DNA from: Borrelia recurrentis A1
GTDB taxonomy: Bacteria > Spirochaetota > Spirochaetia > Borreliales > Borreliaceae
DNA: 64,000 nt
Direction: 5' to 3'
Assembly: GCF_000019705.1 (NCBI RefSeq)
Contig: NC_011244.1
Coordinates: 310,001 to 374,000, forward strand
In this document: positions 26,060-32,894 of the stretch, piece by piece
Numbering within the stretch: the stretch's first letter is position 1
Layout: the number at the start of each line of letters is the position of its first letter
Program-made: the position numbers and the translations under genes
Notes under the pieces: model-generated
Seen by the model: only the letters and a program-made list of their open reading frames with translations
Database searches by the model: none
Told to the model about the DNA's origin: nothing

Positions 26060-26341
26060 TTATCGTTTAATAATATTAATATCTTTATTATCTTTTTTTT
26101 CTAAATCTAAATAATTTTGACTAAGATCTTCTATTCTATCAATACTTTGAAGCTCATATATTATGGTCAACAATCTAAGATTTTCATCAATAATATCATT
26201 TTGTTCATTATTCAACTCATCAAACTCACGTAACTTTACAACATATCTAAAATTAAAATAAATATTTAAACATACTATAATTGTTAATAGCAAAATTAAT
26301 AAACAGTAAAAACCAATTTCAAATCTTTTAATCTTACTCAT
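26060..26341 (-). CDS. ftsL: FtsL-like small division protein
   Basis: The 93-residue bitopic protein has one membrane helix (about 10-32), then a short coiled coil with LREFDELNNEQNDIIDENLR and LSQNYLDLEKKD. This is the general plan of FtsL, which complexes with FtsQ and FtsB. Primary sequence in the family is barely conserved, so the call rests on size, topology and position between rsmH and murF. It overlaps rsmH by 8 bases. Confidence 0.65.
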   Translation of the reverse strand: MSKIKRFEIGFYCLLILLLTIIVCLNIYFNFRYVVKLREFDELNNEQNDIIDENLRLLTIIYELQSIDRIEDLSQNYLDLEKKDNKDINIIKR

Positions 26342-27227
26342 ATAATTTTTTTACAGCCCTCAGCTTAGCACTTCTTGATGCATTATTGTACTGTTTTTCT
26401 TTAAAACTTGAGGTTATAGGTTTTTTAGTAAGTATGCAATACTTATCCTTAGTCAAACCTTTAAAAAATTCTTTTACAATTTTATCTTCCAAAGAATGAA
26501 ATGTAATAATGGCCAAAATTCCATTCTTTGACAAATTTGCTATCCATAATGGCAAACTTCTCTTTAAACGATCCAACTCATCATTAACATAAATTCTTAA
26601 TGCTTGGAAAGTTTTTGTTGCTGGATTTATTTTAAATTTCACATTAGGATACGCTTTACAAATTATTCTCTGGAGTTCTCTTGAGGTTTGAATCTTATTA
26701 ATTTTTCTATACTCTAAGATAGCCTTAACAATTCTCCTAGAATAATATTCACCGCCCAATTCATAAATCAAATTTTCAAGCATTTCTTTATCAAAAGTAT
26801 TAACAATATCATAAGCACTAATACCCCCATCAGAAGGAAAAAGTCTCATATCTAATTTTTCATCTTCCAAAAAAGAAAATCCTCTACCAGCAACTTTGTA
26901 ATGAAACATAGAAATACCAAGATCAGCTAAAATAAAATTAAATCGACGATGTAAAGAATATTTACAAAAAAAATCATCAAACCAAGTATTAGAATAGGAA
27001 ATTCTTTTACTAAATTCTACAAGAGATTCTTTTGCCCTATTCAAAACAACATCATCTCTTTCAATTCCAATCACATTAATATTTTGATACTTACTAAGTA
27101 CAGCTTTTGAATGACCACCTTCTCCAAGAGTACAATCAACAAAAACAAATCCATCATCTAAATATATAGTTTCTACAAGATTAATAACATCCTCAAGAAG
27201 CACAGGAATATGAAAAATGTCACCCAT
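26334..27227 (-). CDS. rsmH: 16S rRNA m4C1402 methyltransferase RsmH (MraW)
   Basis: The 297-residue methyltransferase starts with IFHIPVLLEDVINLV and has the SAM site FVDCTLGEGGHSKAVLSKY. LADLGISMFHY corresponds to the DLGVSS motif, GRGFSF is conserved, and the C-terminal ITFHSLEDKIVKEFF is diagnostic. It methylates C1402 of 16S rRNA. It heads the division/cell-wall cluster, as in many bacteria, and overlaps its neighbours on both sides by 8 bases. Confidence 0.97.
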   Translation of the reverse strand: MGDIFHIPVLLEDVINLVETIYLDDGFVFVDCTLGEGGHSKAVLSKYQNINVIGIERDDVVLNRAKESLVEFSKRISYSNTWFDDFFCKYSLHRRFNFILADLGISMFHYKVAGRGFSFLEDEKLDMRLFPSDGGISAYDIVNTFDKEMLENLIYELGGEYYSRRIVKAILEYRKINKIQTSRELQRIICKAYPNVKFKINPATKTFQALRIYVNDELDRLKRSLPLWIANLSKNGILAIITFHSLEDKIVKEFFKGLTKDKYCILTKKPITSSFKEKQYNNASRSAKLRAVKKLYE

Positions 27228-28050
27228 TAAGTGTAAACCTATAAGTTAAACTATTTTCGACATTATAAACATCCCCATATTTGATTTTAATCTCATTACT
27301 ACCATTAGTAAATTCAAGATTATCTATCTTAATACTTCCATTATTTTTCTTTAAATCAAAAACATTTAAATTATAATTTTTATTTCCAGAAACAACGTAT
27401 GAATTACCATTTAAATATATACTTTGAAAATCAATACGAAAAACACTGTTATTATTTAATAATACTTCAAAATAATAAATACCAGTAAGAATTCTTGATT
27501 CCTTAGCAACATCTCTTTTTAAAAAATTCAAAACAAGAGTATAATTCCCTAACTCTAAATCTAGATCTACATTTTCTTTTAATAAAAATACAATATTATC
27601 TTTACTTTTTAAAAAAAGTTCAGACACAAAAAAAGAAGAAATAATATTTAAATTATTTCTATTTTTTATAACAAATAAAGGATTAATTATCTGTCTATTA
27701 TACTGATCAACCACTACGATATCAAAATTTTTATTATCCATTAAAAAAACTTTATCATCCTTATAAATAAAATCACCAAAAAACTCCAAATTAAAATTTA
27801 AGTCTTTATCAAAAATGATTAAAACACTCTTATCATATTCATTTATCTTATTCTTGGAATATAAGACTTTATAATTATTTGAAAAAATAGAAAAATGAGT
27901 ATCTAAAGCTCTCAATTTTATACCAATATTTAAAGTATCATTTTTAATCTCTCCAAAATCATCAATCAAATAAAATTTTTCATCCTTGCCAAATTCTAAA
28001 AATGAATATAAATTAGATATACTAAATAAAAAAAGAAAAATAATTATCAT
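27220..28050 (-). CDS. Exported protein of unknown function
   Basis: I do not recognise this 276-residue protein. It has a signal peptide (MIIIFLFLFSISNLYS, cleavage near 16). The rest is a beta-rich sequence of short strands alternating Asn/Lys-rich turns, ending in SLTYRFTLNG, a strand like those that finish extracytoplasmic beta-sandwich domains. No catalytic motif is visible. It overlaps rsmH by 8 bases and follows the next gene by 3 bases, so it belongs to the same transcript as the division genes. A periplasmic role in envelope or division is only a guess from this context. Confidence 0.75.
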   Translation of the reverse strand: MIIIFLFLFSISNLYSFLEFGKDEKFYLIDDFGEIKNDTLNIGIKLRALDTHFSIFSNNYKVLYSKNKINEYDKSVLIIFDKDLNFNLEFFGDFIYKDDKVFLMDNKNFDIVVVDQYNRQIINPLFVIKNRNNLNIISSFFVSELFLKSKDNIVFLLKENVDLDLELGNYTLVLNFLKRDVAKESRILTGIYYFEVLLNNNSVFRIDFQSIYLNGNSYVVSGNKNYNLNVFDLKKNNGSIKIDNLEFTNGSNEIKIKYGDVYNVENSLTYRFTLNG

Positions 28051-28053
28051 TAT

Positions 28054-29121
28054 TTAAAGTCCTAAGTATTTTAAATCACTCTTATCATTAAAATATAAAA
28101 TCCCTTTATCAAATTCAACATACGACCTTACCTTATCTTTGAAAAAGATATTATCAAACAACCTATAAGAATTTACAGAATAAGTCCTTATATTGATTAT
28201 ACTACTATTTAAATCATAAAAATATATTCTATATGTATTTGATAAAGAATCATAACAAGCTTGCAAAACAGAATTTTCATCATTAATCCTAAAAGTTTTA
28301 CCACTCTTAATATTAAGTATTAAAAAGGAATCGAAAGTTTTAATAAACAAATTATAAAATTTATCTATCTTAAAAAAAGGATTAAAATCTTTTATCTTTA
28401 AATCTTTTAAAGATAAAACCTGATTATATCCATGATCTAAATTAATTACCTCTAAAGAATAAAATTCATTCTGCCTTAAAAGACACAAATATTTATTATC
28501 TAAGCTTAATTTAACACATATAATGGGCAAACCAAGATCTAATAAATCACCACTATAAATAAAATTTCCATGCTTATATACATAAACATTTCCATCAGAT
28601 GCCCCTAAAACCAAAACACCATCATTATAATCAACACTTAATATTGAGGCTACAAATTTAAAAGAAAAAATTTGACTCCCATCTTCTCCATAAACTTCTA
28701 AAGTTTTATATAAATTATTTAAAGCAAAAATAGCATCACCTTTTGTAAATACAAGATCTTTATATGATAAAGAAAATAAAAATTTATTTGTATTTTTAGA
28801 ATATATAGAATAATTATTTTGGGATTCTCCAAGTACATAATAATACTCAGAAAAACTAACCAAACGATCATTTATAACATGATAATAATATTTATTTAAA
28901 TCTAGATTTAAGATTTGATCTTGCATAAAAACATTATTATTTGAAAACATTTCAACCAAATTATCATATTTTGCAAAATGATTAAATTTATAAGAAGTCG
29001 AAACATCAATTGTTACCCGCAATAAAGAATTAACTAATATGATAAATATCAACAAAAAAATCGACAAGAAGAAAAATCTCATTTTGATAAATTTCGTTGA
29101 ACTTTCTCTATAAAGATGCAT
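28054..29121 (-). CDS. Membrane-anchored beta-propeller-like protein
   Basis: This protein of about 355 residues has one N-terminal helix (about 15-38, FFFLSIFLLIFIILVNSLL). A large extracytoplasmic region of repeated four-strand units follows, such as ILSVDYNDGVLVLGASDGNV and CVKLSLDNKYLCLLRQNEFY, suggesting a WD40/PQQ-like propeller. The function is unknown. I take the ATG at 29121: the TTG at 29142 would place a GAGAGGA element inside the gene, where it looks like this gene's ribosome-binding site. Neighbours lie within 3 bases (downstream) and about 31 bases (upstream). Confidence 0.75.
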   Translation of the reverse strand: MHLYRESSTKFIKMRFFFLSIFLLIFIILVNSLLRVTIDVSTSYKFNHFAKYDNLVEMFSNNNVFMQDQILNLDLNKYYYHVINDRLVSFSEYYYVLGESQNNYSIYSKNTNKFLFSLSYKDLVFTKGDAIFALNNLYKTLEVYGEDGSQIFSFKFVASILSVDYNDGVLVLGASDGNVYVYKHGNFIYSGDLLDLGLPIICVKLSLDNKYLCLLRQNEFYSLEVINLDHGYNQVLSLKDLKIKDFNPFFKIDKFYNLFIKTFDSFLILNIKSGKTFRINDENSVLQACYDSLSNTYRIYFYDLNSSIINIRTYSVNSYRLFDNIFFKDKVRSYVEFDKGILYFNDKSDLKYLGL

Positions 29122-29152
29122 ATTTATTACGTCCTCTCCCAATCCTTAAATT

Positions 29153-29911
29153 CTATTTATTTTTGCTTAAATCAGACTTAAATTTAACAGACCATACTTC
29201 ATAAAATTTAGAAAATTTTTCAGCCATCTCCTTTTGAGAAGTAACTGTAGCTAAAATTTTTCCAGCCTGAATATAATTTAAAATCTGCTCTGTCAATCCA
29301 TAAGCCCCATTTGCTTCATACCTTGATCTTAATAAAAATGCCCCTTCTTCTAAGAGTTCTAAAGATTTAGTTAGATGCAATAATTGAGACTTATAAAAAG
29401 GACTATCAATAACTAAATTTTTTGCTAAATTTTTAAAGTCAATAAAATTTTTTGCCAAGATAATAAACTTCAAATATATATCTTCTAAGAGAAAAATTGA
29501 CTTGGAATCTCCTTTACTAAAATACATTCCCAAATCAATAAGATATCCCAATTTTCTAATAATTAAAAATCTCTCTTCAGGATTTAATTTAATAACAGAT
29601 CCATTTGACACAAGCTCACTAAGAGATATGAGTAAAGAAGGGCTTACAAATAATGAAAAATCAGAAATAAAACTAAAAAGATTTGTTCGAAAATCATAAT
29701 TAACCTTCAATCGAGGCCTTGTATAAAAATAATTTAAAGATAAAATATAACTTAGAACATTTAAATTTAAATTAATAAAATTAACGGTTTTATTTGAATC
29801 CACCCCAACTTTACCAGATTTTTTTACATTCTTTATTTCATCTAAAGTTTGCAAAATAAGACTATCAATAAACAAAATTTTTTGATAATTTTCATTATGC
29901 ACTAAATCCAT
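29153..29911 (-). CDS. Conserved helical protein of unknown function
   Basis: The 252-residue protein has no signal peptide or obvious membrane helix. It is mostly alpha-helical and leucine/phenylalanine/lysine-rich: YQKILFIDSLILQTLDEIKN, RFLIIRKLGYLIDLGMYFSK, KSLELLEEGAFLLRSRYEA. I see no enzyme motif. It lies in the run of four unrecognised genes between nadK and rsmH, all the same strand with short gaps, so it is probably co-expressed with cell-wall genes. Confidence 0.7.
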   Translation of the reverse strand: MDLVHNENYQKILFIDSLILQTLDEIKNVKKSGKVGVDSNKTVNFINLNLNVLSYILSLNYFYTRPRLKVNYDFRTNLFSFISDFSLFVSPSLLISLSELVSNGSVIKLNPEERFLIIRKLGYLIDLGMYFSKGDSKSIFLLEDIYLKFIILAKNFIDFKNLAKNLVIDSPFYKSQLLHLTKSLELLEEGAFLLRSRYEANGAYGLTEQILNYIQAGKILATVTSQKEMAEKFSKFYEVWSVKFKSDLSKNK

Positions 29912-29942
29912 AAATACCTACACTTGCAATCAATTATTACTT

Positions 29943-31469
29943 TTAAAAGACTACTACATACCCAAAATTAATATTACTAATATTACCATAAAGCATTCTA
30001 ACAATTCCTAAAACACTCTCATAGGCAAACAACAAAGACACCTCCTTAAGCACAAATTCTCTTTTAATACACTTTTCTTTACTAAAATATAAAAAGTTTG
30101 CAATATTAGTAAGATAAGTGACAATAAATATATGCATATTTTGCGATAAACTTTTCAAATATTTACCCAAAGTTACATTAAACTTACTCTCTATAGCATA
30201 ATCAATACCATTAACTATTATATGATTATCATCAATGCTTTGAACACTCTGAATAGTCAATATTGTTTTTAAAATCTCCCCTACAGATGCAACTCTATAC
30301 ATTATTGATTGCACTTTTAAAGCAATATAATTAGAAATAAAAAACTTTAAATCACCTACAGTTGCCAAATTCATTTTACCTTCAAATACTGATACAAAGA
30401 ATCTTACATCCCTCATATTAAATTTATGAAAAATCTCAATTACTCCCGATGCAAATTTTAAAGCAACTGTTTTTATAATATTTGAAATACTAAATGATAA
30501 TTTTTGCAAATTTTCAAACAAAACATTTAATTTTTGCTCATTAGCTAATTTAAATGTTGCAATATTAAGCAACAAATTAATAATCTCACTATACTTATCT
30601 ACTAACACTATAACATTTTTAAAATTTGGTCCATATTTTTTATTAAGACAAGGAAAAAAATATAAACGTTTATCTACTAATTCAAGCTCATTTTCATCAC
30701 AAGCTTTTCCAAGACAAACTCCACTATAATCGTGACCAATATCCTCAAGTTCATAGTAAAAATTTTTAAAACAATTTTCAAATTCAAAATAACAAATATT
30801 TACTTTTAAAAAATACTCAGCATCACAAATCACCTTTATTATCTCTCTTAAACAACAAACATTATCATCCAAGTTTAAAACATTTCTTAAATTTAAGATT
30901 GAATTATATATAGATTTATAACTTTTAAGTTCATTTTTAATTGTTTTTTCATATTTTTCTATATTATCACCATACAATTTTTGTTTTAAAATAAAACCAT
31001 AATAACTATTTAAACACCTAATATACGATTTAAACTCTAATTTATATGTTTCTAATTTAATATTTAAATTAACATAATCATTCAAAATATTAAGACAATC
31101 TAAAATATTTTTTAAAAATAAATATTCCCAATTTTGAAAACAAATTTTAAATTCCATATTAAAAATCGAATTTAATACGAAAATAGAAATTGGCTTGTCA
31201 TTGACATAATAATGACCCAAAATGACATTTACAAAATCAAATATTATTGTTTTTAAATCTTTGACCAAAATTCCCCTAAAAAATAAACAACGTCTAAACT
31301 CATCACTTGCTTGAAATTTAGCAACTAAAACATCTCTACATCCTTCATTAGAAATTACATCATCTTTAATTTTGTAACCAAATAAATAATAAAATAAAGA
31401 CAACAACAATATACCCCTGATATTATCAGATTCATCCTCAAATGCAAATAATCCCACATTTAGCCTCAT
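29943..31469 (-). CDS. Large cysteine-rich helical protein of unknown function
   Basis: This protein of about 508 residues starts MRLNVGLFAFEDESDN. An ATG at 31529 would add 20 hydrophobic residues, and neither start has a clear ribosome-binding site. It is helical, rich in Phe, Tyr, Asn and Lys, and has many cysteines (for example VCCLREIIKVICDAEYFLKV), unusual for a Borrelia protein. No signal peptide is evident with the shorter start. The C-terminal half contains IEIFHKFNMRDVRFFVSVFE and ends NISNINFGYVVVF. No family is recognised. Confidence 0.68.
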   Translation of the reverse strand: MRLNVGLFAFEDESDNIRGILLLSLFYYLFGYKIKDDVISNEGCRDVLVAKFQASDEFRRCLFFRGILVKDLKTIIFDFVNVILGHYYVNDKPISIFVLNSIFNMEFKICFQNWEYLFLKNILDCLNILNDYVNLNIKLETYKLEFKSYIRCLNSYYGFILKQKLYGDNIEKYEKTIKNELKSYKSIYNSILNLRNVLNLDDNVCCLREIIKVICDAEYFLKVNICYFEFENCFKNFYYELEDIGHDYSGVCLGKACDENELELVDKRLYFFPCLNKKYGPNFKNVIVLVDKYSEIINLLLNIATFKLANEQKLNVLFENLQKLSFSISNIIKTVALKFASGVIEIFHKFNMRDVRFFVSVFEGKMNLATVGDLKFFISNYIALKVQSIMYRVASVGEILKTILTIQSVQSIDDNHIIVNGIDYAIESKFNVTLGKYLKSLSQNMHIFIVTYLTNIANFLYFSKEKCIKREFVLKEVSLLFAYESVLGIVRMLYGNISNINFGYVVVF

Positions 31470-31555: not shown

Positions 31556-32395
31556 CTATAATAACTTATTTTTCAGTCTTCTAACAAAAGTATCCGTACA
31601 AAAGGATGCAAAACGTAAACTTTTATTATCAAGTTTTAACTCAAAAACAATATTAACCCCAAATGTACCAATATTAACACCATCAACAAAAATTGATGCA
31701 GAATTTAATGTATACCCTTTTTGAAACGCAAGTGACAGTTTACTTTTACTTGAAAAAATAAAAGAACGATTATAAACAGAATGCGGTGAAATGGGTGTTA
31801 AAATGAAAGCCTTAAGATCAGATTCTAAAATAGCTCCTCCCGCTGAAAAAGAATACCCAGTTGATCCTGTTGGAGTTGCAAATATTATTCCATCACTCTT
31901 ATACGAAAGAAAATCTTCTGAATTAACTTTAAGATTTACATAAATCAATTTATTTAAAATACTAGAACGAATAATCACATCATTTAAAGCATATTTAGTA
32001 AATAAATTATTTCCATCTTCATAAGCACTAATACAAAGTAAATATTTTTTATGAATTACTAAAGAATTATTAAAAAACTTATCTATCACATCTTTAAAGT
32101 CTCTAGGCTTTATATCTGCCAAAAATCCTACTTTACCCAAATTGATTGAAATAATAGGAATATCAATATCATTCTTTAAAAGTAAACTACTGGCTAATAA
32201 AACAGTACCATCTCCACCCAAAGTTATTGCAAAAATCAAATTATCTTTATTTGATATATCACATAAAGATTTATTCATTCCTGCAAATAAACTTAAAACA
32301 CCATACTTAAACTCCAAATATCTTTGTATCTCACAAGCAAGAACTTCAGCATCTAAATTTGAATAATTTACGTAAATTAAAACTTTACTACTCAT
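31556..32395 (-). CDS. nadK: NAD kinase
   Basis: The 279-residue enzyme phosphorylates NAD to NADP. Signature motifs are LGGDGTVLLAS (the GGDG loop), NLGKVGFLADI, and TPTGSTGYSFSAGG of the catalytic site. The ATG at 32395 is preferred: AAGGAG lies eight bases before it, and the protein then begins MSSKVLIYVNYSN as NadK should. A longer open frame to 32455 has no such support. The start overlaps the cheW stop by 8 bases. Confidence 0.95.
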   Translation of the reverse strand: MSSKVLIYVNYSNLDAEVLACEIQRYLEFKYGVLSLFAGMNKSLCDISNKDNLIFAITLGGDGTVLLASSLLLKNDIDIPIISINLGKVGFLADIKPRDFKDVIDKFFNNSLVIHKKYLLCISAYEDGNNLFTKYALNDVIIRSSILNKLIYVNLKVNSEDFLSYKSDGIIFATPTGSTGYSFSAGGAILESDLKAFILTPISPHSVYNRSFIFSSKSKLSLAFQKGYTLNSASIFVDGVNIGTFGVNIVFELKLDNKSLRFASFCTDTFVRRLKNKLL

Positions 32396-32894
32396 TATTC
32401 TCCTTATATGGAATCTTTTCAAACTCACTCTTATCAAATATTCGTTCAATATCAATTAAAATTAAATATTCACTCTCAAAATTTTCTTCTTTCTCAATCT
32501 TAACAACACCAGATATATATTTTTTATCAAAAGTTTGTAAAGTTGCAGGAGGCTCTTGTATTCTTGAAACATCAAAACTAATAACTTTTAATACTTTATC
32601 TACAAATATTCCTAAAAGTTTATTTTGAATATTTACTATTAAATAACCTACTAAAAGTTTATCTTCTTCTGTTGCATAAACAGAAGGAATATTAAATCTA
32701 ATATTTAAATTTATCAAAGGAATAACATTTCCTCTAAGATTATAAATACCTGTAATATAATCAGGAACATTAGGTATTGCATAAACACCTTCTAAGGGTA
32801 CTTTAATTACCTCTCTAATATGCTCTATTGAAACTCCATAACTTTCTTTACCAATTTTAAAACATGCAACTTGTAAATGAGATTTTTTTTCCAT
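32388..32894 (-). CDS. cheW: Chemotaxis coupling protein CheW
   Basis: This protein of about 168 residues has the CheW fold: VACFKIGKESYGVSIEHIRE, YAIPNVPDYITGIYNLRGNV, IPLINLNIRF and LLGIFVDKVLKVISF. CheW links chemoreceptors to CheA in the signalling array. Borrelia carries several cheW genes; this one lies away from the cheA operon, so it is probably the one called cheW2. I use the ATG at 32894, with AAGGA eight bases upstream; an ATG at 32915 with GAGGA ten bases upstream is the alternative. Confidence 0.93.
   Translation of the reverse strand: MEKKSHLQVACFKIGKESYGVSIEHIREVIKVPLEGVYAIPNVPDYITGIYNLRGNVIPLINLNIRFNIPSVYATEEDKLLVGYLIVNIQNKLLGIFVDKVLKVISFDVSRIQEPPATLQTFDKKYISGVVKIEKEENFESEYLILIDIERIFDKSEFEKIPYKENNE

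Follow-up and report, generated by a model that had tools for sequence, protein, structure and literature searches.

A conserved propeller and LytM-related gene pair beside a decayed recN upstream of the division cluster of Borrelia recurrentis

Four genes, here designated P1 to P4, lie between nadK and rsmH in a stretch of 64,000 nucleotides from Borrelia recurrentis A1 (the window; NC_011244.1, positions 310,001 to 374,000). Profile comparisons identify P1 as the eroded Borrelia ortholog of an M23/LytM protein that in other spirochetes is the partner of a membrane-anchored propeller, represented in this organism by P2. We assign a probability of about 0.5 to the reading that the two constitute a spirochete-wide envelope pair, whose LytM-related member would, in Borrelia, regulate or scaffold peptidoglycan hydrolysis without being catalytic itself.

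All four frames are real and lie on the same strand, in a row with the tiny gaps that the first-pass annotation had reported (Table 1). The spacing is 26 nt between nadK and P4, 31 nt between P4 and P3, 10 nt between P3 and P2, and 3 nt between P2 and P1, while P1 overlaps rsmH by 8 nt. A search of 36 Borreliaceae genomes showed the order nadK-(recN)-P3-P2-P1-rsmH-ftsL unchanged in every one, and the arrangement P3-P2-P1-rsmH is therefore not due to chance. A promoter scan was uninformative, with 61 found versus 60 expected. The description of the four genes as unrecognised holds for P1, P2, and P3, for which Pfam and NCBIfam scans returned no family match, but not for P4, which matches RecN and, as BRE_317, is listed under that name in the B. 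recurrentis genome paper (PMC2525819).

Table 1. Genes of the nadK-rsmH interval and its two flanking genes, in window coordinates
Gene	Position	Strand	Product length	Remarks
rsmH (mraW)	26334-27227	-		First gene of division/cell-wall cluster
P1	27220-28050	-	276 aa	Open frame between nadK and rsmH
P2	28054-29142	-	362 aa	Alternative ATG start at 29121
P3	29153-29911	-	252 aa	Soluble, apparently helical; family without Pfam/NCBIfam model
P4	29943-31529	-	528 aa	Degenerate RecN, BRE_317; full-length open frame
nadK	31556-32455	-		Upstream neighbor, conserved synteny

The relations of P1 and P2 came to light only when profiles were built on the genes at corresponding positions in other spirochetes; Borrelia-only profiles of the two proteins retrieved nothing outside their own families. 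The propeller and M23 family HMMs comprised 48 members each and were built without Borrelia sequences. P2 was the sole match in the window to the propeller HMM (35.3 bits, E = 2.6e-10), and it could be aligned by hhalign (2e-8) with a gene of about 355 aa in other spirochetes, whose product itself starts with a TM stretch. A single strong TM segment was found near residue 23 of P2, and the AlphaFold2 model (pLDDT 84.8) places an N-terminal TM helix at residues 14-45 ahead of a beta-propeller, so that P2 has the predicted helix-then-propeller layout and the earlier description of it as membrane-anchored and propeller-like was borne out. Foldseek searches with the model matched BamB (4imm, 3q54) and other propellers with E about 1e-10; a PDB sequence search with P2 gave nothing credible. 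The likeness to BamB is at the level of the fold, as for many propellers, and P2 differs from BamB in having a TM anchor rather than a lipid anchor and in being partnered by an M23 gene rather than BamA. P2 is read as a beta-propeller anchored in the inner membrane and probably facing the periplasm. The TM-plus-propeller model does not support the placement of BB0308 among outer-membrane proteins in a published candidate list (PMC4939628).

The pairing of propeller and M23 genes is conserved. P1 directly follows P2 in 36 of 36 Borreliaceae, and of the 97 non-Borrelia genomes with a propeller match, 91 have an M23 gene as the immediate downstream, same-strand neighbor of the propeller gene. The six exceptions comprise two on short contigs, two with an adjacent M23 gene at the loci inspected, one convergent arrangement, and one without an M23 neighbor. 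P3 lies directly upstream of the propeller gene in 70 of 89. The run in other spirochetes begins with cheW, a DegT-like aminotransferase gene, nadK, recN, P3, the propeller gene, and a gene of about 285 aa encoding an M23/LytM domain followed by a further C-terminal domain; it continues through genes for a methyltransferase, a DUF4912 protein, and a GH57 branching enzyme to mraZ, rsmH, ftsL, murF, and mraY. The order from cheW through nadK, recN, P3, and the pair to rsmH, murF, and mraY is seen in many Spirochaetia and is the ancestral one. The methyltransferase, DUF4912, branching enzyme, and mraZ genes stand between the M23 gene and rsmH at loci L151, L153, and L157-L159, and are absent from that position in Borrelia. 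Because other spirochetes carry further genes there that are missing in Borrelia, the contact between P1 and rsmH in Borrelia is secondary.

Scattering of the genes in other spirochetes, which the first-pass annotation had set against its own proposal of a system for cell-wall growth or division, is not what the comparison shows. The block of P3, P2, and P1 is found upstream of rsmH-murF-mraY across much of the Spirochaetia, but in Treponema-like genomes the propeller-M23 pair has moved away from the P3 locus and rsmH, its two members still together. This departure speaks against a fixed tie to the division genes, and position therefore assigns the pair no specific division role. It also favors an alternative that we consider rather unlikely, namely that P1 and P2 serve the envelope outside division, as in remodeling of elongation zones or in relation to the periplasmic flagella, and that their proximity to the division cluster is an inherited order. 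The pair is separated from rsmH and P3 in further genomes besides the Treponema-like ones, four to six unrelated genes lie between it and rsmH in most spirochetes, and in other settings M23 enzymes have a part in shape, as does the bactofilin-linked BB0246 (PMC13393453). However, at least 25 of the loci inspected, and every Borreliaceae genome, still have the block upstream of rsmH, and so long a retention needs some reason.

A second type of M23 protein, bearing LysM, is encoded near P3 in Treponema-like genomes (L154, L156, L160, L226), besides the propeller-M23 pair located elsewhere. In some genomes its gene follows nadK-recN-P3, its best NCBIfam match is ActS, and by eye its zinc motifs are apparently lost. 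It differs from P1 in its LysM, in the HD-domain gene that lies between it and P3 in three loci, and in that two of these genomes (L154, L160) carry the propeller-M23 pair at another site.

P1 begins with a hydrophobic stretch and contains no Cys, and is thus not a lipoprotein; a conserved C-terminal beta domain spans about residues 142-273. Against the M23 family HMM, P1 scored 56.7 bits (E = 1e-16, Z = 1000), whereas the next window ORF reached 1.3 bits and shuffled sequences at most 5.3 bits, and scores of 45-65 bits were obtained for P1 in 36 of 36 Borreliaceae. Alignment of P1 with the ~285-aa spirochete gene by hhalign gave E = 2.5e-7 over 256 columns, and crossed controls gave a probability of about 1%. 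Most of the family score comes from the C-terminal domain (44 bits), with the LytM part alone contributing 13.4 bits, or 20.5 bits in the best Borrelia relative; the C-terminal domain, together with gene order, carries most of the weight in assigning P1 to the family. No match of PF01551 to P1 was obtained at E <= 1, a search of the B. recurrentis genome with this model found only other M23 proteins, and a PDB search with the Borrelia P1 profile produced no credible match. Among the M23 matches in the genome, two on the same chromosome (G000:C1:281642-281932 and 288416-288706) have identical scores and frame lengths and may represent a recent duplication. The profile of the M23 set itself matches DipM (1e-12) and EnvC (1.3e-6) in the PDB.

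The thin signal over the N-terminal half of P1 could mean that this half no longer has a LytM fold and that in Borreliaceae P1 simply binds P2, or serves it as a scaffold, in the periplasm by way of its conserved C-terminal domain. The LytM-only profile is weak on P1 and leaves the middle of the domain unaligned, and AlphaFold2 models P1 poorly and at low confidence, with Foldseek returning no significant match and no LytM structure. Against this stand the collinear matches to both ends of the LytM domain in Borrelia P1s and the full-length hhalign alignment, and we give such a wholesale change of fold little chance of being correct. On either account the catalytic site is gone. The zinc-site columns, HxxxD and HxH, are occupied in Borrelia P1 by N/K, N or V/D; with every ligand lost, the protein can have no activity as an M23 enzyme. 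The full site is kept by only 8 of the 48 non-Borrelia family members and by none of the Borrelia sequences inspected, so that catalysis has been lost widely across the propeller-partner M23 family.

P4, by contrast with its neighbors, has lost its constraint as a protein. It matches RecN TIGR00634 in the NCBIfam scan (E = 1.9e-26, 93 bits over 243-478), below the curated cut-off of 407.85 bits; that cut-off is exceeded by the RecN of only 4 of 36 relatives, the remaining intact ones scoring 370-395 bits. It aligns along RecN and occupies the same position beside nadK as the intact recN of relatives. Motif alignment revealed EDESDNIRG in place of the Walker A sequence GESGSGKS, VGEILKT in place of the signature SGGELSR, VNGIDYAIES in place of Walker B FDEIDSGIGG, and VTYLT in place of the H-loop VTHLA. 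B. recurrentis shares the loss of all ATPase motifs of this gene with B. duttonii. Of 200 RecN columns that are otherwise invariant, 100 have changed in the two species, a rate equal to that of variable columns. The pN/pS of P4 on the branch of B. recurrentis and B. duttonii is 1.49, compared with 0.72-1.40 in a neutral simulation and 0.11-0.58 for neighboring genes, whereas P1, P2, and P3 give 0.22-0.58 on their own branch. The first-pass annotation had described P4 as a Cys-rich helical protein: the 15 Cys are there (2.8%, against a window mean of 0.7% and 5-8 per protein in intact RecNs), but the richness is in part a by-product of drift in a decayed RecN. The motif changes indicate that P4 cannot work as a RecN ATPase in B. 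recurrentis, and the RecN entry of the genome paper should be corrected in this sense.

The P4 frame is nonetheless still open. About 11-13 stops would be expected from some 241 neutral substitutions and none is seen, none of 2000 simulations was free of stops, each of the five main-body indels has a length divisible by three, and frame shifts are confined to the last part. The product may still be made, or translation through the frame may have been kept for downstream expression. Elsewhere in the family, an intact recN frame of about 550 aa occupies the same site in 14 of 18 Borrelia genomes, and two other Borrelia have broken copies (stops in G002, a split over frames in G005; loci L016, L019, L063, L069). 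The gene is missing from all 18 Borreliella genomes (L079-L096), which retain the flanking genes. It thus appears that recN has been lost or broken in several Borreliaceae lineages, more than once.

A single undescribed spirochete system for cell division made up of all four genes, as their tight spacing and conserved order had suggested, is very improbable, given that P4 is a decayed RecN absent from 18 of 18 Borreliella in which P1, P2, and P3 remain. P4 likewise goes against the expectation that none of the genes would clearly match an unrelated family. The broader proposal of a spirochete cell-wall system is partly supported, as the P1 family carries an M23/LytM domain; RecN falls outside any such system, and the division role is unproven.

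P3 has no TM segment. A Borrelia P3 profile detected 13 distant relatives in Spirochaetia (E < 1e-7), and the profile made from Borrelia P3 plus these relatives matched 120 of 158 Spirochaetia and 257 of 296 Spirochaetota genomes, from which P3 is taken to be an old spirochete protein of phylum-level distribution. In Spirochaetia P3 nearly always follows recN, and in other classes it does so only sometimes. It comes directly after recN in genome G108, in agreement with TP0443 of T. pallidum, a recN neighbor with gidB and recX as two-hybrid partners that has been placed with DNA metabolism (PMC2386257). The RecN-linked role that this neighborhood and placement might suggest for P3 is weakened by Borreliella, which lost recN yet kept P3, and P3 is accordingly independent of RecN.

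For the envelope pair that we favor, P2 would tether the exported P1 at the inner membrane. P1, whose family descends from M23/LytM peptidoglycan endopeptidases, would then be a non-catalytic, LytM-derived factor that recruits or switches on another peptidoglycan hydrolase, or that scaffolds the wall. The comparisons establish the families, the orthology, the lost zinc site, the propeller model of P2 and the conserved pairing, while contact between P1 and P2, their periplasmic placement, control of a hydrolase and any timing at division are inferred. The B. recurrentis genome encodes two Amidase_3 proteins, one of which is a possible target. P3 would act in the cytoplasm, its tie to P1 and P2 being positional only. 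Searches of the literature on BB0307-BB0310 and on a spirochete propeller-LytM pair yielded nothing relevant and no interaction or phenotype data. Precedent is provided by EnvC, NlpD, ActS, and DipM, inactive LytM proteins that regulate other hydrolases (PMC10268282, PMC10336132, PMC8360153). By analogy, P1 may serve at the wall without catalytic activity while P2 holds it in place. Like these proteins, P1 is predicted to be exported, is of M23 ancestry, and has lost the zinc site, and its family profile matches two of them; the further likeness, action through other hydrolases, is putative for P1. In contrast to them, P1 has neither LysM nor coiled coil and has a conserved C-terminal domain of its own, and it is paired with a membrane-anchored propeller, not with FtsX. 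A bolder version of the proposal would have the inner-membrane propeller and LytM factor form a module of the spirochetes' own, with the part in controlling peptidoglycan hydrolysis that FtsEX-EnvC has elsewhere; P3 would be its cytoplasmic, phylum-specific member, and its LytM partner would have become non-catalytic in most lineages, Borrelia included. In this complete form we think the proposal unlikely.

Little is known about the control of peptidoglycan hydrolysis at the unusual growth zones of spirochetes and around their periplasmic flagella. The class-wide propeller-LytM pair and the unnamed pan-spirochete protein P3 are defined candidates for this control in Borrelia, in Treponema-like organisms, and in free-living spirochetes.
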